A stretch of 39,381 nucleotides of DNA from a virus. The number at the start of each line of letters is the position of its first letter. Within the stretch, counting starts at the first letter, position 1. The stretch spans positions 1-39,381 of the IMG/VR virus record IMGVR_UViG_3300009506_000096; one strand, given 5' to 3'. Below are positions 3,794-34,173 of the stretch, one piece after another. Both the position numbers and the translations under genes were made by a program. The notes below the pieces were generated by a model, which saw only the letters and a program-made list of their open reading frames with translations, was not told where the DNA came from and did not search any database.

Positions 3794-3835
3794 TTATAAA
3801 AATTATGAGTCAAGTTGAAGCAAAGGAAGGAAGTA

Positions 3836-17512: not shown

Positions 17513-20500
17513 ATGGCAGAAGGGATAGTAGAAGGAACTCCTGTTTCTGATGAAGCACTTGAAGAAGAAAGAGAGCGTGAGCGCGAGGAAGAAAAGCGTC
17601 AAGAAGAAGAAGAACGCAGAAAAAAAGAAGAAGAGGAAGAGCGTCGACGCAAGGAAGAAGAAGAAACTCGTAGGCGCGAAGAAGAGGAGCGTCAAAAAAA
17701 GCTAGAAGAAGAATTAAAACAAAAATTAGAAGAAGAAAAAAAGCGAGCTGAAGAAGAAACCAAGGCTCGAGAAGAAGCTGAACGAACTCAAGAAGAACTT
17801 CAAAAGCAACAGTTCGAAGAGATGAAAAAAGTTCTTCCTGAAGAAGATACTAAAAAACTAGAAGATCCTTTTGAGCGAGTTGCAGATGTTCTCGATAAAG
17901 AAAAACAGGTAGAAGAAGCTGTTAAAAAAGCAGAAGAAGTTAGAAAAAAAGATCCCTTTGAAAGAGTTAAGGCTGAATTAGAAGAAGAAGAAAAACCATT
18001 AGTTGATAAAAAAGTTAATAAAGCAATTAAGCAAGCACAAGAAGATCACGAAGAGTATTTAGAAAAACAAAAAAAAGATCCCGAAGAAGTTGAAAAAGAT
18101 AGGAAAAAAGCTGAACAAGAGGCAAAAGATGCAGGTATTCCAGAAGAAGTAGCTAAGCAAGTAGAACCAATGGACGCCTCTGGAGTTGGCGCTGCTCTTA
18201 TGGAGGGTATATCTGAAAGTGCCACAGGAGTAGTTGCTAAGTCTATCTTTGGTGTAATGAAAGATGTTCCCAAAAAAGAACGTAGTGGCTTTGAATATGC
18301 AGCAAAAGTTGCAGGTGAAATAGCTGGAGATATTCCAGCGTTTGCCTTAGGAAGTTATATTGGGGGAATAGGTGGCGCGGCAATTGGAAGTCTTATTGGC
18401 TCAGCAATTCCTGGCGCAGGTACAGCTGCTGGTGCAGGAATAGGTGGCGTAGTGGGAGCTGGGGTAGGCGCAATGGCATTACCTGTTTTAGTAAAGGAGT
18501 CTTATAGAGAATATGAGGACTATGTTCAAAATGGTGGAGAAGCTTCTTTTGGAAACTTTTTAAAAGCTGCTGGAAGAGTTGCACAACAAACTGGAAGAGC
18601 TGGTGCAGTAGGTGGAATATTTGGAATGCTGGCCCCACAAGTATCAAAGTTAATTCCTATGATGAACAAAATGCCTGGCATGAATAAAATACTAGCTACT
18701 CGTCCGGGAAGGTTTGTTGCATCTGTAGGAGCAGAAACAGTTGCATTGACAGGAGCAGAAACTATTGTTGATCGTGAACTTCCCTCCGCTGATAAAGTTT
18801 TGGAAAATGCTGCAATTATAACTGGCATGAAAATAGGTCATAGTATTGCAGGTAAGGCAAAAGAATATGTGAAGCGTCCCCTCGTAGAAACTACTGAAGC
18901 TAAAGCTGCTAGAAAAAAAGTTTTCAAAGAAAGAATGGATGTAGCTAAAAAAATTCTTCCTGAAGGCATTACAGACTTTATAGAAAAAACTGTTAAGTCT
19001 AAGGAAAAAACTGCTAGATACGAAGAGGTTTTAAAAGACTATCTTGGGGCTAAAAACGAAAAGCTTGTTGAAAGTACATTCAAGTGGCGTGAAGAACAAG
19101 CCAAAGCTGAACAGAAAGGCAAGTTTACTCCAGAACAATTAAAAGATATGACAGAATATGTAGCTGGTATAGATGAATTGCCCAGAGATATTCCAGAAAA
19201 TGCAAAGAAGTTTGTAAAGGAAGTTGTTAAACCCCATCTTGATGAGTCTTTAAAGACGTACAATGCATATCCAGAAACAGAAAATGTTGCTACCTATGAA
19301 GATGCATTTAAAAAATTAGGACTTTCTTCCAAGGGCAAAAATGTAATTGACTTAATGAAGCAGTTTGACCAGGCAAACATTAAAATGATGGCCAAAAAAG
19401 AACTTGTTAATATGTTTGATAAGTTCCAAAAAACAACCGGAGAAGACATTATTGTTAATGATAAAAATATGAGTGAATATAAAAAAGCTAAAAAAGCTGG
19501 ATATATTCCTTTTGAAGATCGCTTCTTAAGAACTTATGAAAAAAATGGACGGTACAAAGTTTCAACACGGCCAGCACTCGTAGAGCCAGAATTTGCTAAA
19601 GTATTTCCTGGAGTTTTTTCCAAAGAAGCCTATAAACCTGCTAGTAAGTTTTGGAAATTTACAGACCAATTGCGGCACGAAATGAACTTTGCACGTGTCA
19701 TTGGAAGTTTGTTCCATGGTGTAGCAGAAACTGAGTCTATTTTAGGACAGCGTGGGCTTAGAGGTTTGCGTCTAAAAAATATGGCACAACAGGGAAGAGA
19801 GTTGCGTTCCAACAAGCAGTTTATGATGGACGCAGCCAGACATGGGCTTCAAGTTACAAAAAGAATTGAGCATCAGTCCTTAAAAAAAGGTGGAACCTAT
19901 ATAGACAGAGCGTTGGACTATATAGGCCAAAAAGAGCCGACTAAAGCTGTAAAGGCTATGAAGAGAGCATCTACTTATCTTTTCGATGAATTTATTCCTA
20001 ATGCAAAAGCAGTTTCTTACAATGAAACTGTTCAGCGTGAAATGGCAAAGTTTAAAAAAGCGAAAGGAAGAAGTCCATCACCGCAAGAAACAAAGGCAAT
20101 GAAGAGAATTGTTGCCGAACATATGAATAATATTTATGGAGGACAAAATTGGGAACAAAGTAAGTACTTTAGAGATCCAAAAATAAGAAAACAATTAAGG
20201 CGTATTTTTGCTTTTTCTGACTGGACTGTTTCAGCGCTGAAACAAGCTACAAGTGTTTTAAAGCCAGGACTTCATGGAAAAATAGCTCGACGATATTTAG
20301 CTAAATATATACTAGCAACAGGGACAACAGCTGCTATATTAAGGGCTGTAATGGGAGGTCTTGAACAAACAGATGAAAAAAACCAGTCAATTAAAGGGAT
20401 ACGCTGGAACCGTGATAAAGCGCTTAAGTCTTTAGAAAATGTAAGTGACTTAAAAGGGTTGTTTAGTTTTGTGTTGCCAGATCTTCCAATACGTTATGGA

Positions 20501-21103
20501 CCAAAAGAAGATCAAATTCTTAATATGGGACGTGACGAAAAAGGTAATAGGTGGGAAGGCCACTTTGGAAAGCAACTTCTTGAAGTATTTGGATGGGCTA
20601 AAGCTCCTGTATCTGTCTTTTTTAGCAAAGCTAACCCAGTATTCACAACAGCCTTCAAGCAAGCATTTGGTGTAGCTCCATCTCGATATGGTCCATTCAT
20701 TGAAAGGCGTGGATGGTATAGAGGAAGACAAAAACCTTGGAAAGGCAAAAAGGGAATAGAAGAACTTAAAGAAAGAGTTTCAGCAATAGCAGAAGAGTTT
20801 ATTCCATTTGGCCTTCGTGGTGGCGCAAAAAAATGGCTGGCTACTTTTGGTGGGGCATTTCCGGTAGCAAAACAATATAGTCCATTTAAAGCTGAAGATG
20901 ATATTGAAAACGCTCTATTGACTAAAAACCCTAAAGTGCGTGACGAAAAACTAGCTGCTATTAAAGCACTATTAAAAAACAACAATTATGATGGAAAAGT
21001 TATAAATAGGCGAATTAGCTCTGTGCGCAACCAATTGGTGCGTGAAGGTAAAATAGAACGCTCACCAAGAAAAAAACGTCAGTCATCCAAAAGGCTACGT
21101 TGA
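17513..21103 (+). CDS. Giant internal virion (ejection) protein, 1196 residues
   Basis: The largest gene. Residues about 13-205 are an extreme Glu/Lys/Arg coiled coil. Residues about 259-330 are Gly/Ala-rich and hydrophobic with repeated GxxxG spacing (GSYIGGIGGAAIGSLIGSAIP), able to enter a membrane. The middle and C-terminal parts (from about residue 700) are helical and carry LRRIFAFSDWTVSALKQA and a second hydrophobic helix at about 930-950; the block resembles the C-terminal part of large podovirus internal proteins. It probably forms part of an injection channel across the host envelope. No transglycosylase motif was found. The last residues are strongly basic. Confidence 0.7.
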   Translation: MAEGIVEGTPVSDEALEEEREREREEEKRQEEEERRKKEEEEERRRKEEEETRRREEEERQKKLEEELKQKLEEEKKRAEEETKAREEAERTQEELQKQQFEEMKKVLPEEDTKKLEDPFERVADVLDKEKQVEEAVKKAEEVRKKDPFERVKAELEEEEKPLVDKKVNKAIKQAQEDHEEYLEKQKKDPEEVEKDRKKAEQEAKDAGIPEEVAKQVEPMDASGVGAALMEGISESATGVVAKSIFGVMKDVPKKERSGFEYAAKVAGEIAGDIPAFALGSYIGGIGGAAIGSLIGSAIPGAGTAAGAGIGGVVGAGVGAMALPVLVKESYREYEDYVQNGGEASFGNFLKAAGRVAQQTGRAGAVGGIFGMLAPQVSKLIPMMNKMPGMNKILATRPGRFVASVGAETVALTGAETIVDRELPSADKVLENAAIITGMKIGHSIAGKAKEYVKRPLVETTEAKAARKKVFKERMDVAKKILPEGITDFIEKTVKSKEKTARYEEVLKDYLGAKNEKLVESTFKWREEQAKAEQKGKFTPEQLKDMTEYVAGIDELPRDIPENAKKFVKEVVKPHLDESLKTYNAYPETENVATYEDAFKKLGLSSKGKNVIDLMKQFDQANIKMMAKKELVNMFDKFQKTTGEDIIVNDKNMSEYKKAKKAGYIPFEDRFLRTYEKNGRYKVSTRPALVEPEFAKVFPGVFSKEAYKPASKFWKFTDQLRHEMNFARVIGSLFHGVAETESILGQRGLRGLRLKNMAQQGRELRSNKQFMMDAARHGLQVTKRIEHQSLKKGGTYIDRALDYIGQKEPTKAVKAMKRASTYLFDEFIPNAKAVSYNETVQREMAKFKKAKGRSPSPQETKAMKRIVAEHMNNIYGGQNWEQSKYFRDPKIRKQLRRIFAFSDWTVSALKQATSVLKPGLHGKIARRYLAKYILATGTTAAILRAVMGGLEQTDEKNQSIKGIRWNRDKALKSLENVSDLKGLFSFVLPDLPIRYGPKEDQILNMGRDEKGNRWEGHFGKQLLEVFGWAKAPVSVFFSKANPVFTTAFKQAFGVAPSRYGPFIERRGWYRGRQKPWKGKKGIEELKERVSAIAEEFIPFGLRGGAKKWLATFGGAFPVAKQYSPFKAEDDIENALLTKNPKVRDEKLAAIKALLKNNNYDGKVINRRISSVRNQLVREGKIERSPRKKRQSSKRLR

Positions 21104-21201
21104 TCTTTGCAGTCACCACAAAGCCATTTCATAACGTAACCACCCCAAGCTATCGGGATAAATAAAAGTATTAAAATAGGTGTTAAAATATACCACAACA
21201 T
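21079..21201 (-). CDS. 40-residue single-span membrane protein
   Basis: A frame whose ATG follows the strong site gaggag and overlaps closely with the stop of the ribbon-helix-helix gene upstream (one base between stop and start). The protein has one clear membrane span (LWYILTPILILLFIPIAWGG, residues 2-21) followed by a Cys-containing polar tail (WLCGDCKDQRS). Its 3' end overlaps the giant gene on the other strand. It is translationally coupled to the regulator. Function unknown; a holin-like or toxin-like peptide is possible given the size. Confidence 0.6.
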   Translation of the reverse strand: MLWYILTPILILLFIPIAWGGYVMKWLCGDCKDQRSLLDD

Positions 21202-21202
21202 A

Positions 21203-21343
21203 TTATCTCCTCATCTCGTTAAATATCATACGAATAAGCAATTTAGTTATCGTTATATTGCGCTTCTCTGCTATTTTTTTTAGATGGTTATAAAAGGCAA
21301 TAGGCAGATCGGCAACAATTCGTTTTCTTCCGAACCTGTTCAT
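21203..21343 (-). CDS. Ribbon-helix-helix transcription regulator, 46 residues
   Basis: An Arc/CopG-like layout: basic N-terminus, strand KRIVADLP (7-14), helix of about 15-28 (IAFYNHLKKIAEKRN), turn ITITK, then helix of about 33-45 (LLIRMIFNEMRR). The pattern with T-x-T before the second helix is typical. The ATG has aaaggg upstream. It sits in a leftward mini-operon between two divergent late blocks, with a promoter whose spacer contains the perfect palindrome TGTGTACACA. By family behaviour it should bind that site as a dimer and repress its own operon, and perhaps the nearby fibre gene. Confidence 0.75.
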   Translation of the reverse strand: MNRFGRKRIVADLPIAFYNHLKKIAEKRNITITKLLIRMIFNEMRR

Positions 21344-21416
21344 TGTTTCCCTTTTCTTTATCAATACGTTCTATAGATAACTTTAATAACTCGAGAAGCG
21401 TTTTTTCTTTATTCAT
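21288..21416 (-). CDS. Small hypothetical protein, first in leftward mini-operon
   Basis: A 42-codon frame from ATG 21416, which has ggagaa at good spacing. Residues 1-30 form a charged helix (KEKTLLELLKLSIERIDKEK); the C-terminus, which overlaps the start of the regulator gene by 56 bases in another frame, contains three Cys. The long overlap is odd and raises the possibility that only the first helix matters, or that this frame serves mainly to lead ribosomes into the regulator gene. Confidence 0.4.
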   Translation of the reverse strand: MNKEKTLLELLKLSIERIDKEKGNNEQVRKKTNCCRSAYCLL

Positions 21417-21444
21417 AGGGTTCTCCATTAATTAAGTTACAAAT

Positions 21445-21473
21445 AGAATAACATATGTGTACACAAAAGTAAA
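21445..21473 (-). promoter_or_regulatory. Leftward promoter with operator palindrome
   Basis: On the minus strand, TTTACT (complement of 21468-21473), a 17-base spacer and TATTCT (complement of 21445-21450). The spacer holds a perfect palindrome TGTGTACACA at 21456-21465. Just upstream of the -35 box is another perfect palindrome, AAGAATATTCTT (21472-21483), with its centre 17 bases away. Both are likely operators for the ribbon-helix-helix protein encoded downstream. Confidence 0.6.
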
Positions 21474-21551
21474 GAATATTCTTACATTCACTTTGTAGCT
21501 GTTGTTAGCTTGTGGAGATAGTAATGTAGTAACCTTCTATAGGAGAATAGA

Positions 21552-23765
21552 ATGGCAGTAAACAGGAACCGTAACTTGGCTTACGGGTTCAACGACACAC
21601 TTATTGACTTGGCTCCTCAGCCAATTGTCTCTCAAAGAGCTCCTACTACCTCAGATCAAGCAGAAATAGGAACGGTCTGGATAGATCAGCCTAATGACGA
21701 TGGATATGTGCTTACTAGTGTAGTAGCTAACTCTGCTAGCTGGATAGGAATAGGCGGTGGCACAGGATCTTTTACCTCTGTAACAACAACAGCAGGAATT
21801 ACTTGTGGCACAGCCCTCACAGTTGGAACAACCCTTGAAGTAACTGGAAATACTACCCTCAATACAGGTCGTGGTGTGGTTCAGTCTAGTGCAGCAGGTC
21901 TTATTTCAGCATCTGAGGGAACAGATGGACAATTGCTTATATCTAGTTCTGCAGCAGCTCCAGCATGGGCAACCCTAACTGCAGGTGCAGGTATTAATAT
22001 CACAAATGGTGGAAACAGTATCACTGTTACAGCTACCGGTGCAGTAGCGTCTACCTTTCCAACAGACTCTGGAACAGCAACCCCAGCAGCTGGCGCAACA
22101 ACCATTGCTGGTGGTAGTAATATTAGCACGTCTGGTGCAGCTGCAACTGTAACCATTGACTTGGATAATACAATTTCAGTAACGGGCGGTATAACTGCTG
22201 GTGTGGACCTTACAATGTCTTCTGGTGACTTAACTATTACAGCGGATACCGATGCTGCGCAGACAATATATCTACATGCCAATGGGGGAGTAAGTGAAAC
22301 AATAGATATTCATTCAGATCAAGGAACTGGCGTAGCCTCTATCAATGTGCATTCTGATGTTGGTGGTGTTACAGTGGCTTCTGGTCTTGGCTCTGCAGAC
22401 GCTATTAATATCACAGCTTCAGATGCAGCTGGTGGTATAGATGTAGACTATGGAACTGGCGGAATGTCGGTTGTTGGGGCCAATGGTGCATTCGCACTAG
22501 AAACTGGCACAGGAGCAATTGATCTTGGGGCAGATGCAGCAGCAAAAACCATTACGATAGGTAACGGAACTGGTGCAACTTCAGTAGTAATAGAAGCAGG
22601 TACAGGTGCTGTAAACGTGGGCGCAAATGCTGTTGCACATACAACCACTGTGGGTTCTGCAACTGGTGCGGCAGGTACTGTTATACAAGCTGGCACAAAT
22701 GATCTTGTGATGACATCTACTGATGACATCACCATTGATGGCGCAGGTATACTTGAGTTAAACTCCACTGCAGGCGCAATTGGTATAGGAAATGATGCTG
22801 ATGCGTTTGCAATTAATATTGGGACAGGAGCTGCAGCTAGAACTATTACGATAGGTAATGCCACAGGTGCAACTGGTGTTTCTATAAATACTGGTACCGG
22901 TGGTGTTGCATTAAGTTCTACAGGATCTGGAGATATTGTTATAGACTCAGATGATACTTTGTTATTGGATGCTGATGGAGTATTGGAGCTTAATTCTTCT
23001 GCTGGAGCTATTAGTATTGGTAACGATGCTGATGCTCAGGCCATAAATATTGGAACCGGCGCTGCAGCTAGAACTTTAACAATTGGAAACAATACAGGTG
23101 CAACCGCTGTGGATATAGTAGCTGGAACAGGCAATATAACTGTTGACTCTGGCGGAACATTATTACTTGACTGTGCAGGTGTTTTAGAGCTTAACTCATC
23201 CGCTGGAGTAATTAGTGTTGGTAATGACGCAGTAGCGCAAAATATTAATGTTGGTACAGGGGCTGCAGCGAGAACCATAACTGTCGGAAATGCAACAGGC
23301 GCAACGGCTGTTAATATTAACTGTGGGACAGGTGGAGCAACACTCGGAACTTCAGCAAACGCTCATACAACTACAGTAGGATCTACTAATACAACTTCTG
23401 ATACAACTATTCAAGCTGGAACTGGTGGTATCACACTTACCGCTGCTGGTATTGTTGATATGGTTCCTGCAACTGACACACAAGCAGCTGCAACCGTGAC
23501 TATTAATGCTAACGTTGGATACGGTACCTTCACTGGACTAACAACAGCTTCTGCTGCAACACAAGTGCTTACTGTTACAAATAGTGTATGTACAACTTCT
23601 TCTGCAATACTTGTAACTGTTGCTAACGTAGGTGCTAACGATGCTAAAATGACAATTGAAAGAGTTGAGCCTAAAGCAGGATCATTTGAAGTTGAGTGCA
23701 AAAACAATGGATCTCAAGCGCTCAATGGAGATGTAACTGTTACATTCTGGATCATTAAAGCTTAA
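21552..23765 (+). CDS. Repetitive tail fibre with shared N-terminal module
   Basis: Encodes 737 residues, Thr/Gly/Ala-rich, after a strong site (taggagaat). Residues about 25-70 hold the module RAPTTSDQAEIGTVWID...SWIGIGG, which recurs in three later fibre genes and is probably the virion-binding end. The shaft has several imperfect repeats of 67-77 residues built on GNDADAxAINIGTGAAARTxTIGN and ELNSSAG, the look of an intertwined beta-helix trimer. The C-terminal 110 residues are a distinct beta domain (VTNSVCTTSSAILVTVANVG...). It follows a leftward regulatory unit and opens the long fibre region. Role in host binding is inferred. Confidence 0.75.
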   Translation: MAVNRNRNLAYGFNDTLIDLAPQPIVSQRAPTTSDQAEIGTVWIDQPNDDGYVLTSVVANSASWIGIGGGTGSFTSVTTTAGITCGTALTVGTTLEVTGNTTLNTGRGVVQSSAAGLISASEGTDGQLLISSSAAAPAWATLTAGAGINITNGGNSITVTATGAVASTFPTDSGTATPAAGATTIAGGSNISTSGAAATVTIDLDNTISVTGGITAGVDLTMSSGDLTITADTDAAQTIYLHANGGVSETIDIHSDQGTGVASINVHSDVGGVTVASGLGSADAINITASDAAGGIDVDYGTGGMSVVGANGAFALETGTGAIDLGADAAAKTITIGNGTGATSVVIEAGTGAVNVGANAVAHTTTVGSATGAAGTVIQAGTNDLVMTSTDDITIDGAGILELNSTAGAIGIGNDADAFAINIGTGAAARTITIGNATGATGVSINTGTGGVALSSTGSGDIVIDSDDTLLLDADGVLELNSSAGAISIGNDADAQAINIGTGAAARTLTIGNNTGATAVDIVAGTGNITVDSGGTLLLDCAGVLELNSSAGVISVGNDAVAQNINVGTGAAARTITVGNATGATAVNINCGTGGATLGTSANAHTTTVGSTNTTSDTTIQAGTGGITLTAAGIVDMVPATDTQAAATVTINANVGYGTFTGLTTASAATQVLTVTNSVCTTSSAILVTVANVGANDAKMTIERVEPKAGSFEVECKNNGSQALNGDVTVTFWIIKA
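22774..23340 (+). repeat. Tandem imperfect repeats in the fibre shaft
   Basis: Three copies of a segment that encodes GNDADAxAINIGTGAAARTxTIGNxTGA, spaced 77 and 67 codons apart. Between copies the LLLDxxGVLELNSSAG segment also recurs. DNA copies differ at many third positions, so they are old repeats kept by protein selection and not recent duplications. Confidence 0.75.
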
Positions 23766-24121: not shown

Positions 24122-24451
24122 GTGGCAAATTATATTCTACCAATAGCTAGGGCTACCCTAGACTCAGCAACTTTAGCTGGAGCTTATAAGGCTATTAATT
24201 CAACTGGTCTAGCTAATTCATGTTCAGTTTTAAGAATTATCAATGACAGTGATACTGATATAAACGTCAGTTATGATGGCACAACTGATCATGACTATGT
24301 TAAAACTGGCGAAACGCTCCAACTTGACTTACAGGCAAATTCAACTCCAAACAGCTATGTTTCTTATATAAGAAAAGGAACAGTTGTATACGCAAAGAGT
24401 GCTGCAGGCGTAGGAAATATCTACGTAGCTGGTTATTATCAAGCAGTTTAG
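24122..24451 (+). CDS. Small beta protein, tail-associated, paralog A
   Basis: A 109-residue all-beta-looking protein. The frame must open with GTG at 24122, since the ATG two bases before reads only eight codons; gggaggag lies at correct distance. The core VLRIINDSDTDINVSYDGTTDHDYVKTGETLQLDL and GTVVYAKSA...VGNIYVAGYY aligns strand by strand with the next gene, so they are paralogs. The pattern is typical of small cap-like proteins beside fibre genes. Probably a minor tail component. Confidence 0.7.
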   Translation: MANYILPIARATLDSATLAGAYKAINSTGLANSCSVLRIINDSDTDINVSYDGTTDHDYVKTGETLQLDLQANSTPNSYVSYIRKGTVVYAKSAAGVGNIYVAGYYQAV

Positions 24452-24462
24452 AAAGGATAGTA

Positions 24463-24801
24463 ATGGGTTTGTCTATAAGGTTATTGCCAGAAGACGTGCG
24501 TACGCTCGCTTTTGGCTCAATTGTCGCTGGTTACATGGGAGTTGGAACAGCATTTGAAAACCCTGTAAGAATTTTGTTAGTTCAAAACCTTACAGATGAG
24601 TCACTTATGTTTTCTTTTGATGGGGTTAATGACCACCTTCCTCTTCCTAGAGATGGGTATATTTTAATTGATGTAACTGCAAATAAGTCTATCGAAGCAG
24701 GTATGTACTTTGCTGAAGGGACAAGAATTTATGTAAAACAAATTGGTGCACCAACACTTGGATCGGTATACGTAACAACATTTTATGGTTCGAGGGACTA
24801 A
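24463..24801 (+). CDS. Small beta protein, tail-associated, paralog B
   Basis: Encodes 112 residues with the same fold pattern as the gene before: RILLVQNLTDESLMFSFDGVNDHLPLPRDGYILIDV, then GTRIYVKQI...GSVYVTTFYG. The DG-N/T-DH turn and the GT-x-x-Y strand align. A helix at the N-terminus (LLPEDVRTLAFGSI) is new. The site gaaaggat precedes the ATG, and the next fibre gene starts two bases after its stop. It is co-translated with the largest fibre, which suggests a fibre-base or assembly partner. Confidence 0.7.
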   Translation: MGLSIRLLPEDVRTLAFGSIVAGYMGVGTAFENPVRILLVQNLTDESLMFSFDGVNDHLPLPRDGYILIDVTANKSIEAGMYFAEGTRIYVKQIGAPTLGSVYVTTFYGSRD

Positions 24802-24803
24802 TT

Positions 24804-27800
24804 ATGAGCCAAATGGGTAAATTTATCAGCGCTGCATCCATCGGTGCTGTGACTACCCTTACAGGTAATGCTGGAGGTGCAGTTAGTCCAGATGGTGCAG
24901 GTAATATAGATATTCTGGGTTCCGGTGCTATGACAGTGACCGGTACCCCGGCTTCAAATTTATTAACGATAACAGTCGCAGATGCTAGCACTACTGCAAA
25001 AGGTGTAATAGAAATAGCAACTAATGCAGAAAGTATAGCAGGCGCTTCCGCCCTCCTCGCTATAACTCCTGCATCTTTAGAAGCAAAACTTGGAGCATTA
25101 ACATCAAATAGTGTTCCATATGGAGCGGGTACAGGGTCAGCAATAAGTTGGATGACTCCAGGTACAGACGGTCAAGTTATTATAGGCGCAACTGGAGCAG
25201 CACCGGCCTTTGCCACTATGACATCTTCTGGTGGAACGATAGCTTTCACCCCAGGGGCTAATACCCTAAACTTAGAAGTTGGTGGATCTGTAGCAGTTTC
25301 TTTTCCTACTGACTCTGGAACAGCGGTACCTGCTTTGGGAGCATTAACTATTGCTGGAGGTAATAATATTTCTACATCTGGAGCAGGATCTACTGTAACT
25401 ATTAATGTTTCTGGAACAACTCAATACGCAGTACAAGTTGGAGATGCGACAGGAAGCTTAGACTCTTTACCTGTAGGAACAACAAATACTGTTTTATTGG
25501 GAAATACTGGCGCTAACCCTTCATGGGGTCAAGTAGATCTAACTACAGATGTAACAGGTATTTTGCCGGTACCAAATGGTGGAACTGGTAATTCTACACT
25601 AACTGATCATGGAATAATGCTTGGATCTGGAGCTTCACCTGTAACAGTACTTGGTGTCGCAACAGATGGACAACTTCCAATTGGATCTACAGGCGTAGAT
25701 CCAGTGTTAGCTAATATAACAGCTACAGACCAAACACTAACTGTTACTAATGGTGCGGGAACCATAGATATAGAAGCAGGGACAGGGTTGCGTTTAGCCT
25801 CGGGGTTCGCCTCTTGGGCTGGAGGATCTCCTTATTTTGATGATACTACCCTGGGTCAATTTACGGTTTCACAAGGGGGTACTGGGTATATAGAAGGTGT
25901 TCCGGTTACATGGGCTGGTGGCCAAACTGAAACAGGTCTAACAGCCGGTAATACATATTATATATATATAGATAATACTGGCACCATCGGAAAAACAACC
26001 ACTTACAGTGAGTCATTATTCCAGAATAATATTCTTCTTTTTGAAGTATTAAGAGACTCAACTTCACCTACAAATAACCAATTAACAGTTAAAGAAAACC
26101 ATCCATACCAGTTTCCATGGAAAACATCTGTGTGGGCACATGATACTATTGGTTCTGTTATATCTAATATGTCTGGTGGTGCGAATATAACTTTAAATGG
26201 GACACAAAAAATTGAGATATCCGGCCAAGACTTTTTAGAGGATCACGGCTTAGAAACTACAATACCAGACAGTGGTGGAGTTGCTGAAACATTTGAACAA
26301 TATTACACACTTGGATCTGGCAAATGGGCGCTTCACACTAGCAGTGATACATTTGATGGAACGTGGAATAATGCAGGAACCCCAACAGCGCTAAGCGGCA
26401 ATAAATATTCTGTTAATAGGTTATATGTAAGCAAAGATAATATTAATTCTGCCACGCCTGTTTATATTTCTGTAATGGGAGACGCTGAATATAACAATTT
26501 AGCGCAGGCAGATACAGCTATTGCAAATGACCAAATTCCGACTGCAACAGCAGAACTTGCTGCACTTGAATTAGCCCAGCTGGGATATATTGTTTTCGAA
26601 GAGTCTTCTACATCTATTGTTCAGGTCATTATAGCAAAAGAAACTGTAAGAACCTCTTTTTCTGGTGCTACCGCAACAACAGCTTCTTTGGTTCTCACTG
26701 ATACAACAAACTTTGATCATATATTAAGTGCAGCTGATACAACAGTTCAGTCTGCCTTAGAGACTATAGATGATCTTACATTTTCAGGAGACAGTGGATC
26801 GGCTCAAGCTGCATCTGCTGTATTTACATTTGCTGGAGGAACTGGCATAACAACTTCAGCTGCTGGATCAACAGTAACAATTACATTAGATACACCTGTA
26901 TCAGTTGCAAATGGCGGTACTGGAGCGGCTACATTAACTGATCATGGTGTATTGGTTGGATCGGGAGCAAGCCCTATTACAGCATTAGCTGTTGGAACTG
27001 ATGGACAAGTGTTATTAGGATCAACTGGGGCAGATCCAGTTTTTGCAACACTGGCATCAGCTGATAGTACGATATCTTACACGCCAGGCGCAGGAAGTTT
27101 AGACCTCGCAACTGGTTCAGCTGTGGCAAAGTCATTTCCAACAGACTCAGGGACAGCAACTCCTTCAGCTGGAGCACTAACAGTAGCTGGAGGAAACAAT
27201 TGTTCTACTTCTGGAGCAGGTTCAACGGTTACTATAGATGTTGATGGTAATGTAGCTGATAGTTTTAGCACTGACTCTGGTTCAGCGGTACCATCATTAG
27301 GAGTTTTAACAGTCACAGGTGGAGATAATATAGACACTTCAGGAGCAGGCTCCACTGTTACAATTGCAGTAAGTTCAGCAGTATGTGACTCTGCGGCTAC
27401 AGATAGTGGAACAGCAACTCCGGCAGCAGGTGTTTTAACTTTTGCAGGTGGTACAAATGTAACCACGTCTGGTGCTGGATCAACAGTTACTATTAATGCA
27501 TCAGGGGGAGGAAGTGGAATAACATGGAATGAGGTAACTGGAACATCTCAGTCTGCAGCAGTTGATAATGGGTATATAACAAATAACGCTGCTCTTGTAA
27601 CGGTAACGCTTCCAGCAACTGCATCAGTAGGTGAAACTGTCCGTATTTTAGGCCTAGGAGCAGGTGGATGGAGAGTTGCGCAAAACGCTTCCCAGTATAT
27701 CCGTTGGGATGAAAATAATGTTACAACAACAGGAGCAGGCGGACGCTTGGACTCTACAGACGACCATGACGCTGTTGAGCTAATATGCACAGTAACAAAT

Positions 27801-27848
27801 AATGGTTGGGGAGTTGCGTCAGCCAAGGGAAATATTTCTGTTACATAG
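24804..27848 (+). CDS. Large modular tail fibre, 1014 residues
   Basis: The N-terminal third holds a STTAKGVIEIATNAESIAGASALLAITPASLEAKLG block, typical of phage fibre repeats. Modules recur: VPNGGTGNSTLTDHGIMLGSG and VANGGTGAATLTDHGVLVGSG, then TDGQLPIGSTG and TDGQVLLGSTG, and five or so DSGTAxPxxGxLTxxGGxN-x-TSGAGSTVTI units. Residues about 440-650 are a different, mixed domain (GKWALHTSS, VNRLYVSKDNIN, LAALELAQLGYIVFEES) that is likely globular. The C-terminus (NEVTGTSQSAAVDNGYITNNAALVTVTLP) is a small beta tip. It looks assembled from modules, as expected for a fibre under host-range selection. Confidence 0.75.
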   Translation: MSQMGKFISAASIGAVTTLTGNAGGAVSPDGAGNIDILGSGAMTVTGTPASNLLTITVADASTTAKGVIEIATNAESIAGASALLAITPASLEAKLGALTSNSVPYGAGTGSAISWMTPGTDGQVIIGATGAAPAFATMTSSGGTIAFTPGANTLNLEVGGSVAVSFPTDSGTAVPALGALTIAGGNNISTSGAGSTVTINVSGTTQYAVQVGDATGSLDSLPVGTTNTVLLGNTGANPSWGQVDLTTDVTGILPVPNGGTGNSTLTDHGIMLGSGASPVTVLGVATDGQLPIGSTGVDPVLANITATDQTLTVTNGAGTIDIEAGTGLRLASGFASWAGGSPYFDDTTLGQFTVSQGGTGYIEGVPVTWAGGQTETGLTAGNTYYIYIDNTGTIGKTTTYSESLFQNNILLFEVLRDSTSPTNNQLTVKENHPYQFPWKTSVWAHDTIGSVISNMSGGANITLNGTQKIEISGQDFLEDHGLETTIPDSGGVAETFEQYYTLGSGKWALHTSSDTFDGTWNNAGTPTALSGNKYSVNRLYVSKDNINSATPVYISVMGDAEYNNLAQADTAIANDQIPTATAELAALELAQLGYIVFEESSTSIVQVIIAKETVRTSFSGATATTASLVLTDTTNFDHILSAADTTVQSALETIDDLTFSGDSGSAQAASAVFTFAGGTGITTSAAGSTVTITLDTPVSVANGGTGAATLTDHGVLVGSGASPITALAVGTDGQVLLGSTGADPVFATLASADSTISYTPGAGSLDLATGSAVAKSFPTDSGTATPSAGALTVAGGNNCSTSGAGSTVTIDVDGNVADSFSTDSGSAVPSLGVLTVTGGDNIDTSGAGSTVTIAVSSAVCDSAATDSGTATPAAGVLTFAGGTNVTTSGAGSTVTINASGGGSGITWNEVTGTSQSAAVDNGYITNNAALVTVTLPATASVGETVRILGLGAGGWRVAQNASQYIRWDENNVTTTGAGGRLDSTDDHDAVELICTVTNNGWGVASAKGNISVT

Positions 27849-27857
27849 GAGAAGGTA

Positions 27858-28520
27858 ATGGCAAAAATTAATGCAATAAATAATGAGTCGGAAGAACTAA
27901 CAATAGATCCTGGTGCAAGTGGTGACAGTTTTGTACAATTTGACATTAATGGAACTGGAGAATTTAGGATAGGGGTAGATGACGATGCAAGTGATGCCTT
28001 TAAAATTAGTCAAGGATCTGCACTTGGTTCTAATGATACCTTTATTGTTACAGCAGCTGGAGAAATAACAAAACCTTTAACTCCTGCTTTTTTAGCGGTA
28101 TTAAATGCAGATATTAGTAATGTAACTGGTGATGGTACTATATATACAATTGTATGGGATACTGAAGTTTTCGACCAAAATTCTGACTTTGACGGAACAA
28201 GTACATTTACCGCTCCTGTTACTGGAAGATACCAATTTTCTTGTGGAGTATCTGTAGGAGATGTAGCAGCTGCACATACTTTGATGTATATAAATTTAGT
28301 TACGAGTAATAGAACATATCTTATAGGCCAATGTGATCCAGGAAATACAATGGATGCTAGCAACCAATGGGGGTATTCATTTTCTATGTTAACAGATATG
28401 GACGCATCAGATACAGCAACAGTTCAAGTGGTAGTGCAAAATAGTACAAAAGTTATCGATGTAATTACAAATGGATCTACAGATACATACTCATGGTTCT
28501 CAGGAAATTTAGAGTGTTAG
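27858..28520 (+). CDS. C1q-like tail protein, copy 1
   Basis: Encodes 220 residues after taggagaag. Residues 1-78 are a beta module (MAKINAINNESEELTIDPGASGDSF... GEFRIGVDD... FKISQGSALGSNDTF) that ends at a LTPAFLA hinge. The rest is a C1q/TNF-like jelly-roll pattern: VFDQNSDFDGTSTFTAPVTGRYQF, an NRTYL strand, TDMDASDTATVQV and a final WFSGNLEC strand. Such domains trimerise and serve as receptor-binding tips. The next gene is a close paralog in the same operon with an eight-base gap. Assignment to the C1q-like fold is by motif reading and not by search. Confidence 0.75.
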   Translation: MAKINAINNESEELTIDPGASGDSFVQFDINGTGEFRIGVDDDASDAFKISQGSALGSNDTFIVTAAGEITKPLTPAFLAVLNADISNVTGDGTIYTIVWDTEVFDQNSDFDGTSTFTAPVTGRYQFSCGVSVGDVAAAHTLMYINLVTSNRTYLIGQCDPGNTMDASNQWGYSFSMLTDMDASDTATVQVVVQNSTKVIDVITNGSTDTYSWFSGNLEC

Positions 28521-28528
28521 GAGAATAG

Positions 28529-29182
28529 ATGGCAAAAATTAATGCCATAAATAATAAGTCAGAAGAATTAACAATAGATCCAGGCGCAAGTGGTGACTCC
28601 TTCATTCAATTTGATATCAATACTACAGGAGAATTTAGGATAGGTGTTGATGACACAGACTCAGATAAATTTAAAATTTCACAGGGCTCAGCACTTGGAA
28701 CAAATGATACATTTGAGATAACAGCCAATGGAGAAATAACAAAGGAATTAACATCAGCATTTTTGGCAACTACAAATGGATATACTAACCAAGACAATGT
28801 GACCGGAGATGGCACCGTTCATACTGTTGAATATACCACTGAATATTTTGATCAAAATGCTGACTTTGATGGAACAAGTACATTTACGGCTCCTGTAACA
28901 GGTCGATATAGAATTTGTGCAACAGTATTGTTTGATGAGGCTGGAGCAGCAACAAGCTCTTATATAGAAATTGAAGCTTCTAACAGAACATTTAGAAGTT
29001 GGCTGTGCGATCCAAGTACAGTTTCTCACGCTGCGGGTCAATTTACACCATTTATTACAGCCTTAGTTGATATGGATGCATCAGATACAGCTATTATAAA
29101 AGTTATGGCATCTGGTACCACAAAAGTTGTAGATATAGGGTTTACAAATAGGGGTATTTTTAGTGCAGTTTTAGTTTGTTAG
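28529..29182 (+). CDS. C1q-like tail protein, copy 2
   Basis: A tandem paralog of the preceding gene, 217 residues. The first 80 residues are nearly identical to copy 1, and the C1q-like part keeps STFTAPVTGRY and VDMDASDTA but has diverged in surface loops (CATVLFDEAGAATSSYIEIEASNRTFRSW, and the ending RGIFSAVLVC). The pattern of a conserved base and variable loops is what receptor-driven divergence would produce. Starts after taggagaata. The following gene starts eight bases on. Confidence 0.75.
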   Translation: MAKINAINNKSEELTIDPGASGDSFIQFDINTTGEFRIGVDDTDSDKFKISQGSALGTNDTFEITANGEITKELTSAFLATTNGYTNQDNVTGDGTVHTVEYTTEYFDQNADFDGTSTFTAPVTGRYRICATVLFDEAGAATSSYIEIEASNRTFRSWLCDPSTVSHAAGQFTPFITALVDMDASDTAIIKVMASGTTKVVDIGFTNRGIFSAVLVC

Positions 29183-29190
29183 GAGAAAAG

Positions 29191-29418
29191 ATGGGACTTG
29201 CGGGACTTATTGTTAGCACGGTAATTGTGGGAACTTCAATTCTTATTGGTATAGGATATAAAAAGCTTTTCAAGGTAAAAGATGATCATCCAGTAGAGGA
29301 GATGTGTGAGAAAATTATCAAGGAGAGAACTGGAATAGATATAGACTTTACACCCTCATCAAAAGAAAAAGATGATAAAAAAAAACAGAAGGAAAAAAAG
29401 AATGAAGATAACAGTTAA
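29191..29418 (+). CDS. Small single-span membrane protein, 75 residues
   Basis: From ATG 29191, after taggagaaaag. Residues 2-25 are a membrane span (GLAGLIVSTVIVGTSILIGIG), followed by a basic linker, a VEEMCEKIIKERTGIDID helix and a Lys/Asp/Glu-rich tail. The TG-x-D turn after the helix is found in small proteins of podovirus-like phages near fibre genes; function is unassigned there. The shape (one N-terminal span, charged cytoplasmic tail) is compatible with a class of holins, so it is one lysis candidate. Overlaps the next gene by 17 bases. Confidence 0.6.
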   Translation: MGLAGLIVSTVIVGTSILIGIGYKKLFKVKDDHPVEEMCEKIIKERTGIDIDFTPSSKEKDDKKKQKEKKNEDNS

Positions 29419-29701
29419 TGGAAGCGATGTTCTTGAGCTAACCGAAACACAACAAAAAGTAATTAAAAATGAAATACCATCAAGCATCTTTGAAGAAGAT
29501 ATTAAGCGTAGAGCTGCCTATATAATTCAACATAAGTACGACCAATGCTTTAAAAGACTAAAGCAAGAGTGGGATCCAAAGCTAGAAGCAGCTGGAATAG
29601 AGTCAATTCCTACAAATAAAGATGCATATGCAGAACTAGTGTTTCAACAACCAAGCTATAAAGATAGAGCTGCTAGGGACCTAGAATTAGATAAAGCATA
29701 A
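29402..29701 (+). CDS. Conserved-type small phage protein, 99 residues
   Basis: From ATG 29402, after aaggaaaa; upstream in-frame codons are a poly-Lys stretch inside the neighbour. The order MKITVNGSDVLELTETQQKVIKNEIPSSIFEEDIKRRAAYIIQHKYDQCFKRLKQEWDPKLEAAG followed by a QPSYKDR end is one I recognise in many podovirus-like genomes with no assigned function. It is soluble and mainly helical with a beta hairpin at the N-terminus. It lies between fibre genes and next to the membrane protein. Confidence 0.7.
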   Translation: MKITVNGSDVLELTETQQKVIKNEIPSSIFEEDIKRRAAYIIQHKYDQCFKRLKQEWDPKLEAAGIESIPTNKDAYAELVFQQPSYKDRAARDLELDKA

Positions 29702-29710
29702 GGAAAGTAT

Positions 29711-31060
29711 GTGGGAAGAAGAAGGAAAGAAACGCGTTTGGGAGGAAAAAACCCACTCGCTTATATGGGAATAGAAGCAAGCGACTCTCCTATTTTATTG
29801 CTATCTTATGATCGTGCTCCAACTTCTTCTGATAAAAACAATTTTCGCGTAGGAACAATTTGGCATGATAGAAGTACAGATCCTGTTGATGTATGGATGC
29901 TTGTTGCGCTAGATCCAAATTCTGCTACATGGGTAAAACTTTTAACAACCTCAATGGTGGCAACTCAGTATGATACAGATAGCGGAACAGCTATTCCATC
30001 TGTAGGTATTTTAAATATTCTTGGCTCTTCTGTATTAACTACTTCTGGAGCTGGTAATACAGTAACAACAGCCTTCACTTCAGCAACTGATGGACAAATA
30101 ATTATTGGCGGGGGATCCGCGCCAGCGTGGGGAAATATTACATCTGTGGGTGGCACTATTGTCATAACAGAGACGGCTAACGGCATTAACCTGGAAGCAT
30201 CTGGAACAGCAGCTCTTCTTACATTAACTGCAGACTCTGGAACAGCAACTGAAGCAGCAGGAAATATAAATATTTTGGGCGGCACAAACTTAAATACATC
30301 TGCTGTTGGTAGCACTTTATCTACCCAGTTGGATACAAATGTAGATATTTCTGGCTCACTCACATTAAGTGCGCAGGGCGCCGGTGTATTGCAAGCCAGT
30401 GCAGGAGGAGTAGTATCTTCTAGCGCAGGTGATGATGGAGAAGTTCTAATAGCTGCAACTGGAGGTGCGCCAGCATGGGCCAATATTACATCCTCAGATG
30501 GCTCTATCGCTGTAACAAATGGTCCAAATACAATTAACCTAGAGACAGGATATAGTACAACCCGATATTCATTTATGGCATTTCAGGGAACCGCATCCCC
30601 AGTTATTCTGGGAGGATCTGGATCTCCAGGCTACTATCTTGGAGATAGCTCTACTTTAGGGCAAATGCAAGAAATATTTGATGCATCTGGTGTTTTTGAT
30701 CCTGGATCAGCAGGTACGCCAGCTACATTTACAGCACCTGTGAACGGAAAATATTATTTATGCCTTAAGGTTATTTTCAGAGGAGCAAATGCTTTTCCGT
30801 CTTACGAAGCAAACCATTTTTTTACTTTAAGAATGGAAACAAACAACAGGCAGTATACAAATATTACAAAACTACTCATGGAAATGCAGTCTGGAAGAAG
30901 CTATGTACAGCGAGAAATATATGTGTGTGCTGATATGGACGCAGGAGATACCGCGCAATACTTCGTAAATGTTACAACAAGTGCTACGGCTAATAATTAT
31001 TTTAGAGTTCAAGATACTGCAGGTTTCAGAGATACTTGGGTATGTGGGTACTTATTATAG
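29711..31060 (+). CDS. Modular tail fibre with C1q-like tip, copy 3
   Basis: Encodes 449 residues opening with GTG 29711, since the ATG two bases upstream reads only 21 codons. The N-terminus holds the shared module (DRAPTSSDKNNFRVGTIWHD... WVKLLT), the middle carries DSGTAIPSVGILNILGSSVLTTSGAGNTVT-type shaft repeats and ATDGQIIIGGGSAPAWGNIT units, and the C-terminal 150 residues are a C1q-like domain (PATFTAPVNGKYYL, NRQYTN, ADMDAGDTAQYF). The order anchor, shaft, tip is repeated in the two genes that follow, so these three are paralogs with different tips. Confidence 0.8.
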   Translation: MGRRRKETRLGGKNPLAYMGIEASDSPILLLSYDRAPTSSDKNNFRVGTIWHDRSTDPVDVWMLVALDPNSATWVKLLTTSMVATQYDTDSGTAIPSVGILNILGSSVLTTSGAGNTVTTAFTSATDGQIIIGGGSAPAWGNITSVGGTIVITETANGINLEASGTAALLTLTADSGTATEAAGNINILGGTNLNTSAVGSTLSTQLDTNVDISGSLTLSAQGAGVLQASAGGVVSSSAGDDGEVLIAATGGAPAWANITSSDGSIAVTNGPNTINLETGYSTTRYSFMAFQGTASPVILGGSGSPGYYLGDSSTLGQMQEIFDASGVFDPGSAGTPATFTAPVNGKYYLCLKVIFRGANAFPSYEANHFFTLRMETNNRQYTNITKLLMEMQSGRSYVQREIYVCADMDAGDTAQYFVNVTTSATANNYFRVQDTAGFRDTWVCGYLL

Positions 31061-31067
31061 GAATGAG

Positions 31068-32414
31068 ATGGCAAGAAAAATAAAAAATACTGAGTTGAGT
31101 GGCCTAAACGTATTTTCCTATTTAGGGGCTAACCCTCTTGCATCTTTTTCACTAACTACTATTGATAGAGCCCCCACCAATGATGATCAAGAAAAGTTTA
31201 ATATTGGCGATATATGGATAGAAAGAGATGACCTTATAACTCCACAATTTAAGTCTGTTTGGATGTTGGCAAAAAAAGATGGAATAGTTGCTACATGGAT
31301 AAGGCTTATAACGTCTTTTGATGCTACTCAATATGATACAGACAGTGGCACAGCAACTCCATCTTCAGGAATAATAGAAATTATAGGTGGAACAACAGCG
31401 TTGCTTAGTACAACTGGTTCAGGAAATACCGTCACGCTACAACTAGCGAACGGAACAGCAGGGCAGCTACTCATCGGAGATACTGGAGGAATTCCAGCAT
31501 GGGCAAACCTAACCTCCACAGGTGGAACTATTACGATAACAAATGGAGCAAATACAATTAATATTGAAGCTGTGGGAGTAGGTGGTATATATATTACTGC
31601 CTTGGATGCAGATACTGGAACAGCTACCCCAATATCACAAAATATTGACTACTTAGGGGGTGCGAACATAACGACATCTGCGGCAGGCTCTACATTAACA
31701 ATTGACCTAGATAATGATGTAACTATTCCTGGAACCCTTACAATTAGTCCACTAACAACTGGAGTTGTACAAACAAACGGTGGAGGCCTTGTATCATCAT
31801 CTAATGGAACAGATGGGCAGCTTCTTATCAATGCTACAGGAGGGACCGCAAGTTGGGCAAATATAACATCTACGGGTGGAACTGTAACAATTGCCAACGG
31901 ATCAAATACAATTGACTTAACAATTGCTGGAGGAGCACCTGTTGATAGAGTTCCATTTTTAGCTGTGCAAGCTGCTACAGCAACTGGGGTATTGGGAACT
32001 GGAGTTGGAACTTCATTAGGTGCAAATATTATATTGACCGAGATATTTGATGTTGGAAATGATGTATTTCCAGGTGATGGAGCTGGTGCAGCTGCAACAT
32101 TTACAGCCCCAGAAACTGCAAAATATTTATTGACTGTTAACGTTAAGTATAGTTCATCGTTAACAACAAATTATTCAGCTTCCTTGGTGTTAAAAATTAT
32201 TACAAGTAATAGAACATATGTAATGGATATAACAGCAAAAACAAGTCCAGGTTTAGAGGATATAAGAAATATATCTGTGTTTGCTGATATGGATGCAAGC
32301 GATACGGCAAGTTATTTTTTAGCTGCATCTGAAGCAAGTGGTGCGGCCATTGATATTGCAGGCGCAGCAGTGAACACTCCAGTTACATGGATATCTGGAT
32401 ATAAAACGAGGTGA
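31068..32414 (+). CDS. Modular tail fibre with C1q-like tip, copy 4
   Basis: Encodes 448 residues from ATG 31068; a longer frame starting at 30969 lies within the previous gene and lacks a site. N-terminal module DRAPTNDDQEKFNIGDIWIE then WIRLIT; shaft with DSGTATPSSGIIEIIGG, GQLLIGDTGGIPAWANLTSTGGTITI and NGTDGQLLINATGGTASWANIT; C1q-like tip with AATFTAPETAKYLL, SNRTYV and ADMDASDTASYF. The tips of copies 3, 4 and 5 share motifs but differ in length and loops. Placed seven bases after copy 3. Confidence 0.8.
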   Translation: MARKIKNTELSGLNVFSYLGANPLASFSLTTIDRAPTNDDQEKFNIGDIWIERDDLITPQFKSVWMLAKKDGIVATWIRLITSFDATQYDTDSGTATPSSGIIEIIGGTTALLSTTGSGNTVTLQLANGTAGQLLIGDTGGIPAWANLTSTGGTITITNGANTINIEAVGVGGIYITALDADTGTATPISQNIDYLGGANITTSAAGSTLTIDLDNDVTIPGTLTISPLTTGVVQTNGGGLVSSSNGTDGQLLINATGGTASWANITSTGGTVTIANGSNTIDLTIAGGAPVDRVPFLAVQAATATGVLGTGVGTSLGANIILTEIFDVGNDVFPGDGAGAAATFTAPETAKYLLTVNVKYSSSLTTNYSASLVLKIITSNRTYVMDITAKTSPGLEDIRNISVFADMDASDTASYFLAASEASGAAIDIAGAAVNTPVTWISGYKTR

Positions 32415-32417
32415 GGA

Positions 32418-33773
32418 ATGAGTAGAAAGGATACAAGGCTAAATGGGTTGCAGCCATTATCATATTTAGGCGTAGAGCCTCTAGCCACACCTTATTTTTT
32501 GTCAAATGATAGGGCGCCTACTACCAATGATAAATTTAACTTTCAAGTAGGAGACTTTTGGCTTAATAGAAACACCTTGAACCCTTGGACTCTTGTAAGT
32601 TTAGAAAATAATGATGCAACATGGATAAAATTAGCTACTTCATCCTCTGTGGCGTATGAGTTTGTAACAGATAGCGGAAGTGCAATTCCATCTGGAGGCA
32701 TTTTAAATATAGTAGGGTCTTCGGAGCTATCTACTTCAGGTGCAACAAATGTGGTAGATGTAGATATTTCCAGCAGTAATGATGGAGAAATACTTATAGG
32801 AGCGACCGGAAGCGATCCTGCGTGGGCTAATATAACATCTACTGGGGCTACCATCACTATTACAAACGCAGCAAATAGTATAAATTTAGAGGGTCCTGGA
32901 ACTGGTCAGCTGCAACAATTTACCTCAGATGCAGGAGTTGCAACACCGACAGCAGGTGTTGTTGATGTGGTAGGTGGCGCAAATATAGACACGAGTGCAG
33001 CTTCGGACACCTTAACAGTTTCTCTTTCAGATGATGTAACAATAGCGGGAACACTTACCTTATCTTATCTGGGTGCTGGCGTAGGGGCAACAAACAGCTC
33101 TGGGCTTATATCTTCAAGCACAGGGAACGATGGGCAAGTTTTAATAGGGGCAACTGGAAGCGATCCTGCATGGGCCAATATAACTTCAACCGGCGCATCT
33201 GTAACAATTACTAATGCAGCGAATAGTATTAATTTAGAAGTTGTTCCTCCTGTTGCACCAATAGACTCTGGCTTTTTGGCGGTTTTAACCGGAACACATT
33301 ACTTTCAATATTTTCCTGCATTAACAAGTTTTCAGCTAGGACTAACAACAGGTGCTGTTATGACTGAAATATATGATAATAATAGTGACTTTTTTCCTGG
33401 AAACGGTACAACAACAGGAGCTACGTTCACCGCACCACAAACTGGGAAATATCATCTAACAATGAGAGTAAAATATAATGCAACCATAGCAACAACTGGT
33501 GGTGTTGGATATGTTAGAAGACTCTGGATAGCTACCACAAAATATCTTTACACCGACTATAGGGTAATTTTAAATGGAGCAACTTACCGTGATAGTAGAG
33601 ATAGTATAGGAACAGTGGATGTGCTCGCAGAAATGGATATGGGAGATACCGCTACATATAGCTTTTTCTATCAAGCATTTCTATCTGGAACAGCTACAGA
33701 CTATGACTGCAATATTGAGGGAGGGACAACAGCAGACATGGAAACCTACGTTAGTGGCTCTATAGTTGAATAA
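32418..33773 (+). CDS. Modular tail fibre with C1q-like tip, copy 5
   Basis: Encodes 451 residues; the last gene of the fibre run, three bases after copy 4. Module NDRAPTTNDKFNFQVGDFWLN then WIKLAT, shaft with DSGSAIPSGGILNIVGSS and NDGQVLIGATGSDPAWANITSTG (twice, nearly identical), tip with GATFTAPQTGKYHLTMRVKY and AEMDMGDTATY. The two near-identical shaft units show recent internal exchange. A leftward terminator sits right after its stop, so it ends the rightward late region. Confidence 0.8.
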   Translation: MSRKDTRLNGLQPLSYLGVEPLATPYFLSNDRAPTTNDKFNFQVGDFWLNRNTLNPWTLVSLENNDATWIKLATSSSVAYEFVTDSGSAIPSGGILNIVGSSELSTSGATNVVDVDISSSNDGEILIGATGSDPAWANITSTGATITITNAANSINLEGPGTGQLQQFTSDAGVATPTAGVVDVVGGANIDTSAASDTLTVSLSDDVTIAGTLTLSYLGAGVGATNSSGLISSSTGNDGQVLIGATGSDPAWANITSTGASVTITNAANSINLEVVPPVAPIDSGFLAVLTGTHYFQYFPALTSFQLGLTTGAVMTEIYDNNSDFFPGNGTTTGATFTAPQTGKYHLTMRVKYNATIATTGGVGYVRRLWIATTKYLYTDYRVILNGATYRDSRDSIGTVDVLAEMDMGDTATYSFFYQAFLSGTATDYDCNIEGGTTADMETYVSGSIVE

Positions 33774-33807
33774 AATAAAAAAAAGGGTACACTGTGCGTG
33801 TACCCTT
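33773..33807 (-). terminator. Leftward terminator of the recombination operon
   Basis: AAGGGTACAC (33783-33792) and GTGTACCCTT (33798-33807) form a perfect 10-bp stem with a five-base loop. Read leftward it is followed by a run of eight T. It ends the leftward operon and keeps it from entering the fibre genes. Confidence 0.85.
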
Positions 33808-33837
33808 AAGCAGTGTCTCCATACCACATAAAGGAGA

Positions 33838-34173
33838 TCAATTATCCTTTTTAGTTTTTTTTAACAACTTCGAAAGAGCCAAGAAGGAAGTTGTAGTATT
33901 TTGGTAAAGTTTCAAAGCTTCGTTTATAAACTCTTCATCGTATAATTTGTCATCAAATACTTTGGTAAAAAACTCACCAATTGGTTTCCATTTTGGATGT
34001 TGTTTATTTTCGTTTAGTTGGATGTATAAGTCAAATTTTTCTGTTTCCTCCAAATGTTTTCTGAAATAGAATATGTCGGTTACGATAGGAATATCCTTGA
34101 GTGTTTTGCATATGGTTCCCATCTCATAACGATCATATTTAGTAGGTTTATGGTAGCGTGTTATGTGGCTCAT
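33838..34173 (-). CDS. Hypothetical protein, last in leftward operon
   Basis: Encodes 111 residues from the second of two adjacent ATG codons, which is better spaced from the strong site ggagg; the first would add one residue. Mixed charge, aromatic-rich (HKPTKYDRYEMGT, PIVTDIFYFRKHLEE), with helices in the C-terminal half and a Lys-rich end. It lies directly after the annealing protein gene, with a gap of 13 bases, and before the operon terminator. Family not recognised; a partner in recombination or replication is suggested only by its place. Confidence 0.65.
   Translation of the reverse strand: MSHITRYHKPTKYDRYEMGTICKTLKDIPIVTDIFYFRKHLEETEKFDLYIQLNENKQHPKWKPIGEFFTKVFDDKLYDEEFINEALKLYQNTTTSFLALSKLLKKTKKDN

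Follow-up and report, generated by a model that had tools for sequence, protein, structure and literature searches.

Five genes in the fibre region of a short-tailed phage, all within about 6 kb, encode proteins that end in a gC1q domain. They lie in IMG/VR virus record IMGVR_UViG_3300009506_000096, from an uncultured phage, and the complete record of 39,381 bases is the window analysed here; it is classed as linear and is therefore possibly incomplete. With a probability of roughly 75%, the run encodes five trimeric gC1q-fold receptor-binding tips held on two carriers of one virion; the trimeric state, the place in the virion and the binding are what we infer, and the domain and the carriers are observed. 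One carrier is a protein of 217-220 residues consisting of stem and tip, present in two copies, and the other is a fibre of about 450 residues consisting of anchor, shaft and tip, present in three. The five genes sit downstream of the portal, head and other structural genes, all on the + strand, with a purine-rich stretch preceding every start. A conserved gene stands between the two groups:

27858..28520, + strand: short protein 1, 220 aa; stem residues 1-73, gC1q tip residues 74-220 (28077-28517)
28529..29182, + strand: short protein 2, 217 aa; stem, then gC1q tip (28748-29179)
29402..29701, + strand: neighbour gene for a predicted charged protein of ~99 aa, between short tips and long fibres (mechanical start of the open reading frame, ORF, at 29372)
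29711..31060, + strand: long fibre 1, 449 aa, GTG start; anchor residues 2-81, repeat shaft, gC1q tip residues 284-449 (30560-31057)
31068..32414, + strand: long fibre 2, 448 aa; anchor, repeat shaft, gC1q tip (31944-32411); start set at 31068, which fits the homologous N-terminus (the mechanical ORF opens at 30969)
32418..33773, + strand: long fibre 3, 451 aa; anchor, repeat shaft, gC1q tip (33261-33770)

That five genes share one end pattern had been proposed in an earlier note made from the sequence alone, and it is confirmed by a tip profile for which only other viruses supplied sequences, the rows of the window having been removed. This profile matches exactly five ORFs of the window and no other (E-values in gene order 4e-58, 2.5e-45, 1e-22, 4e-24 and 4e-14), with 0 matches among 5,850 shuffled ORFs. 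Two of the motifs named in that note hold throughout: TFTAP followed by G/A and K/R-Y is present in 5/5 tips, as is DMDASDTA with small changes (ADMDAGDTA, AEMDMGDTA). The third, an NRxY strand, is not universal, being replaced by TKYLY in the last fibre, whose tip is the most diverged of the five, and by NRTF in the gene at 28529. The best conserved tip positions are few (F78, G91, D106, F117-P120, G123, Y125, D185, T186) and correspond to the fold core, and variability is highest at positions 126-176.

The assignment to gC1q rests on sequence and on fold. Short protein 1 matches the Pfam C1q family (PF00386) with an E-value of 5e-4 and 20.7 bits, slightly below the curated cut-off of 23.7, and the remaining four tips of the window, searched singly, have no Pfam C1q match. 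Within the wider family, 29/56 members match at E <= 0.01 (best 6.5e-9), and the long tip of one relative (L005), at 31.0 bits, exceeds the cut-off. Against PDB sequences the family profile finds complement C1q (9e-9), cerebellin-1 (6e-7) and C1q-like proteins (about 2e-5). TFTAPVTGRY and DMDASDTA align to STFIAPRKGIY and IQMEKGDRAYL of cerebellin-1, and the two main motifs of the earlier note thereby coincide with conserved C1q strands. Fold was predicted from AlphaFold2 monomer models of the 27858 and 29711 products, the other three tips being assigned by sequence alignment. The model of short protein 1 has a mean predicted local distance difference test score (pLDDT) of 90.9, and its residues 72-220 superpose on the gC1q domain of Caprin-2 (Z 17.5, root-mean-square deviation (rmsd) 2.1, 128 aligned residues) and on phage domains from the phi812 central spike (Z 16.6), cyanophage A4 (14.9) and the end of the A-1(L) short fibre (14.6). 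The model of long fibre 1 has an overall pLDDT of 64.2 with a poor shaft (about 50), and its tip, residues 284-449, likewise superposes on Caprin-2 gC1q (Z 14.3, rmsd 2.5, 128 aligned). The tips are thus gC1q domains, as the description of C1q-like tips had it. The complement C1q protein proper is not claimed, and there is no collagen-like Gly-X-Y run in the translations of the five proteins. Many phage proteins in a viral structure library are already named 'C1q domain containing', and the fold on phages is accordingly not new.

The two carriers are distinct. Each short protein is a single stem of about 73 residues followed by a tip, lacks the anchor domain of the long fibres as judged by the anchor profile, and differs from its partner mainly in the tip (stems 85% identical, tips 49%). 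The three long fibres share the anchor found by that profile, and their likeness extends beyond the tip to the entire architecture, with pairwise identities of 42-45% over their length (blastp among the window proteins). Two further fibres belong to the same run:

21552..23765, + strand: fibre of 737 aa with an N-terminus like the anchor of the three long fibres
24804..27848, + strand: fibre of 1014 aa without a C1q tip, adjoining the short tips upstream

The anchor profile matches the 737 aa fibre weakly (E 1e-5, residues 18-71), and blastp aligns it to the long fibres at 33-35% identity over about 200 residues; the shaft repeats of the 1014 aa fibre recur in the long fibres by blastp (E down to 1e-17) and as DNA repeats. 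With two carriers and C1q-free fibres in one gene run, the suggestion of a mixed set of appendages is supported. In the distant relatives L045, L053, L069 and L079 a single longer protein carries 2-3 stem modules in tandem ahead of its tip, and the module is thus a repeat unit of a shaft. Judged from this arrangement, the short genes look like a fibre end piece that was made separate and then multiplied.

The short genes had been described as tandem copies, and adjacent they are, but they are not recent copies. In the tip tree, first short genes group with the first of relatives and second with second (Shimodaira-Hasegawa-like approximate likelihood ratio test support 92 and 85-94, below the starred level). 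Across seven genomes, stems are 81% identical on average between the copies within a genome vs 70% between orthologues, whereas tips are 44% identical within a genome vs 51% between orthologues. The contrast has the same direction in 7/7, to be read as a pattern rather than a formal test, the genomes having been chosen from the tip tree and sharing comparisons. Fourfold-degenerate sites are identical at 40% (stems) and 38% (tips) within genomes and at 34% and 32% between them, which is near saturation, so most copies are old. The short tips are consequently old retained paralogues with positional orthology among close relatives. Recent duplication or an assembly artefact was considered for the short pair and rejected on these sites, on stem third codon positions that are 60% alike, and on the presence of orthologues of each position in other records. 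In L040 and L049 the stem codons are more alike than elsewhere (19/29), which may mark gene conversion there.

Relatives were surveyed in two sets, one of 34 loci found with the tip itself and one of 46 loci from viral records fetched with the ~99 aa neighbour gene, a marker that avoids picking loci by their tips. Counts from both refer to records and not to independent events, some records being fragments and some near-copies of each other. The neighbour gene is 39-67% identical to its relatives (alignment A4), and by a scripted rule 41 of the 46 places counted (the window plus 45 loci) have a C1q-tip gene immediately preceding it. Whole records carry from 1 to 5 tips, and the change in copy number among homologous genomes that the earlier note had proposed as a check is therefore present. 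Five tips were found in the window, in 3300018080_000063 (2 short and 3 long) and in 3300018080_000052 (3 and 2), where the two contig ends each hold a part of one tip gene, as a circularly permuted genome would produce. Two to three short copies are common, and L038, L065 and L070 have a single one. The long-fibre slot after the neighbour gene is more variable in kind. On a common anchor it carries C1q ends in the window, L040, L051, L054 and L060, a glycine-rich end in L039 (weak Pfam match) and an S74 chaperone end in L042 and L056; the ends of the C1q-free long fibres of L038, L043, L066 and L073 have no Pfam match. A scan of viral contigs with the full long fibre as query found no relatives. 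Cultured phages gave one weak tip match, in Limnohabitans phage DC33, and the four cultured phages checked, a small sample, have one tip-profile match each. The DC33 record (L037, PQ492659.1) carries a taxonomy line of Inoviridae alongside a 39 kb genome and a C1q-domain protein of about 848 aa, and this classification looks wrong. No cultured phage gave a relative of the neighbour gene, and a scan of bacterial genomes confirmed none; the product of this gene, with no Pfam and no convincing PHROG match, is possibly a fibre assembly factor.

The run has attributes of fibre receptor-binding proteins (RBPs), namely a place among fibre genes and, in the long fibres, a shared anchor and a repeat shaft, and the set is probably a receptor-binding toolkit. 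In the simplest account of a stem that is nearly constant within a genome, both short copies would dock on the same virion partner; in the long fibres the tip would be held by the shared anchor and repeat shaft. Stem and anchor would then be constrained by docking and the tip by its ligand, leaving the tip as the part that could diverge, multiply, vanish or give way to another end type. The virion would display several host-contact surfaces simultaneously, the five tips may address different ligands, and the usefulness of several contacts would explain why the set is kept. A library for different receptors, as suggested in the earlier note, is plausible, given that divergence is greatest in the tips and that ends are swapped between viruses. 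A tip targeted by a diversity-generating retroelement was rejected, there being no RVT_1 match in the record as deposited, itself possibly incomplete, when control genomes did match. An inversion cassette of the Mu G-segment type was likewise rejected, with all genes on one strand and no inverted repeat of at least 40 bases in 24800-34000, a search that leaves shorter crossover sites aside. Any library would thus be a fixed gene set per genome, with exchange between genomes.

Two published results weigh against a role in recognition. The TNF-like knob of the HS1/Sf6 tail needle appears not to confer host specificity (PMC3741392), so that the fold alone is no proof of receptor recognition, and in cyanophage A-1(L) binding was seen with stem and end domain together but not with the end domain by itself (PMC10966104). 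The domains might be mainly trimerisation and end caps that register and protect the fibres, with another protein, such as the C1q-free fibre of 1014 aa, responsible for recognition and with drift behind the divergence of the tips. Such a role fits the conservation of fold-core positions, and the needle knob could be transferred onto P22 with the host unchanged (PMC3741392); yet a cap requires no set of five diverged versions, the tips retain position-specific identity across genomes, and in relatives other ends replace C1q tips in the long-fibre slot. We regard this explanation as unlikely, though it is the strongest competitor.

A somewhat smaller chance attaches to the short copies forming one mixed trimer or ring, like the A, B and C chains of complement C1q, as subunits of a single tip and not as alternatives. 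Stems more alike within a genome in 7/7 cases and tips that keep position-specific lineages are what co-assembling partners would be expected to show, and the frequency of two to three short copies agrees; however, separate homotrimers docking on one partner predict the identical pattern, and the relatives with a single short copy speak against it. It is equally doubtful that the short copies, with their near-identical stems and position-specific tips, co-assemble so that one phage builds combinatorial C1q heads. Least credible, and in our judgement very improbable, is a location of the short proteins off the tail, as head decoration or as free secreted proteins. They are small and lack the long-fibre anchor, but their genes lie between fibre genes in conserved order, and L045, L053 and L079 carry the same stem and tip as the end of a longer fibre-like protein. 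Receptor-binding tips on two carriers thus remain the preferred reading.

Three further genes were assigned near the start of the record, and structural and fibre genes extend downstream of the head protein to about 33.8 kb:

689-2065: terminase
3815-5911: P22-type portal
8648-9598: major head protein

Ahead of the 1014 aa fibre, in an order kept in relatives, lie genes for two small proteins (24122-24451, 109 aa, and 24463-24801, 112 aa) that are 27% identical to each other and have no family match. Far upstream of the tip run, the product of 12429-13076 has a Gp53-like tail-fibre C-terminal domain (Pfam PF21882, above cut-off) and is a further candidate tip of another family. Weak E1_FCCH domain matches, below cut-off, occur in two proteins of the structural region (9621-10589 and 13076-15160), perhaps reflecting a small beta domain in common. 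A scan of the tip run for sigma-70 promoters gave matches no commoner than in shuffles.

Both C1q tips in phages and phages with several receptors are already known. C1q-domain genes of pelagiphages (HTVC010P-like clusters) were proposed in 2014 as hypervariable receptor-binding proteins (PMC3909814), and C1q tips have been described as hypervariable recognition candidates in cryoconite phages (PMC7468147). The pelagiphage genes resemble those of the window in lying beside fibre genes of small phages and in combining a conserved N-terminus with a most variable tip (PMC3909814), but HTVC010P has one C1q-like match, as opposed to up to five tips on two carriers here, and the marker neighbour gene has no match among its genes. 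In that genome (L084, Pelagibacter phage HTVC010P) the stretch 19876-22984 contains the C1q-like gene, apparently interrupted, with profile and Pfam matches in different frames, and after it three tandem look-alike proteins of 205-217 aa; the C1q tip profile matches none of these three, which make up an analogous tandem set, from a different family, in a cultured phage. The nearest tested case for the proposed mechanism is cyanophage A-1(L), in which the short-fibre stem and end domain bind host cells and short and long fibres use different receptors (PMC10966104). Its gp33 (PDB 8ke9) shares the end-domain fold, and long and short fibres occur in one virion, as is predicted for the phage of the window; it differs in its contractile tail, in having one short and one long fibre gene, and in an end-domain identity of about 10%. 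The needle of Sf6/HS1 similarly ends a fibre-like protein of a short-tailed phage in a TNF/C1q-like trimeric knob (PMC3741392), but as a single needle in the tail axis and not as a fibre set.

Several RBPs per phage with shared N-terminal parts, encoded by genes whose gain and loss alter recognition, are also a feature of the multi-tailspike complex of Ackermannviridae (PMC11414711), although these tailspikes are of another kind, and well-known phages with several RBPs are mostly tailspike carriers. Extracellular contractile injection systems alternate C1q and S74 ends on one fibre class (PMC12923769), but are bacterial injection machines and not phages. Metazoan gC1q domains (Caprin-2, C1QL, cerebellin, complement C1q) share the fold and the F-x-A-P-x-x-G-x-Y and G/S-D strand motifs at about 20% identity; there the domain sits on collagen or signalling chains, here on phage stems and repeat shafts. 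More broadly, a phage of about 39 kb spends some 6 kb on a single immune-type fold in five versions, a bacterial-virus counterpart to the way eukaryotes turn one fold to many ligands, and its relatives, with the same slots empty, multiplied or refitted, provide a natural series for learning what each added tip brings to host range. Relative to the known systems, the new points are that a small genome can hold up to five tips, that one fold is mounted on two carriers, that the short tips are specific to their position, and that the long-fibre slot exchanges C1q for unrelated ends.

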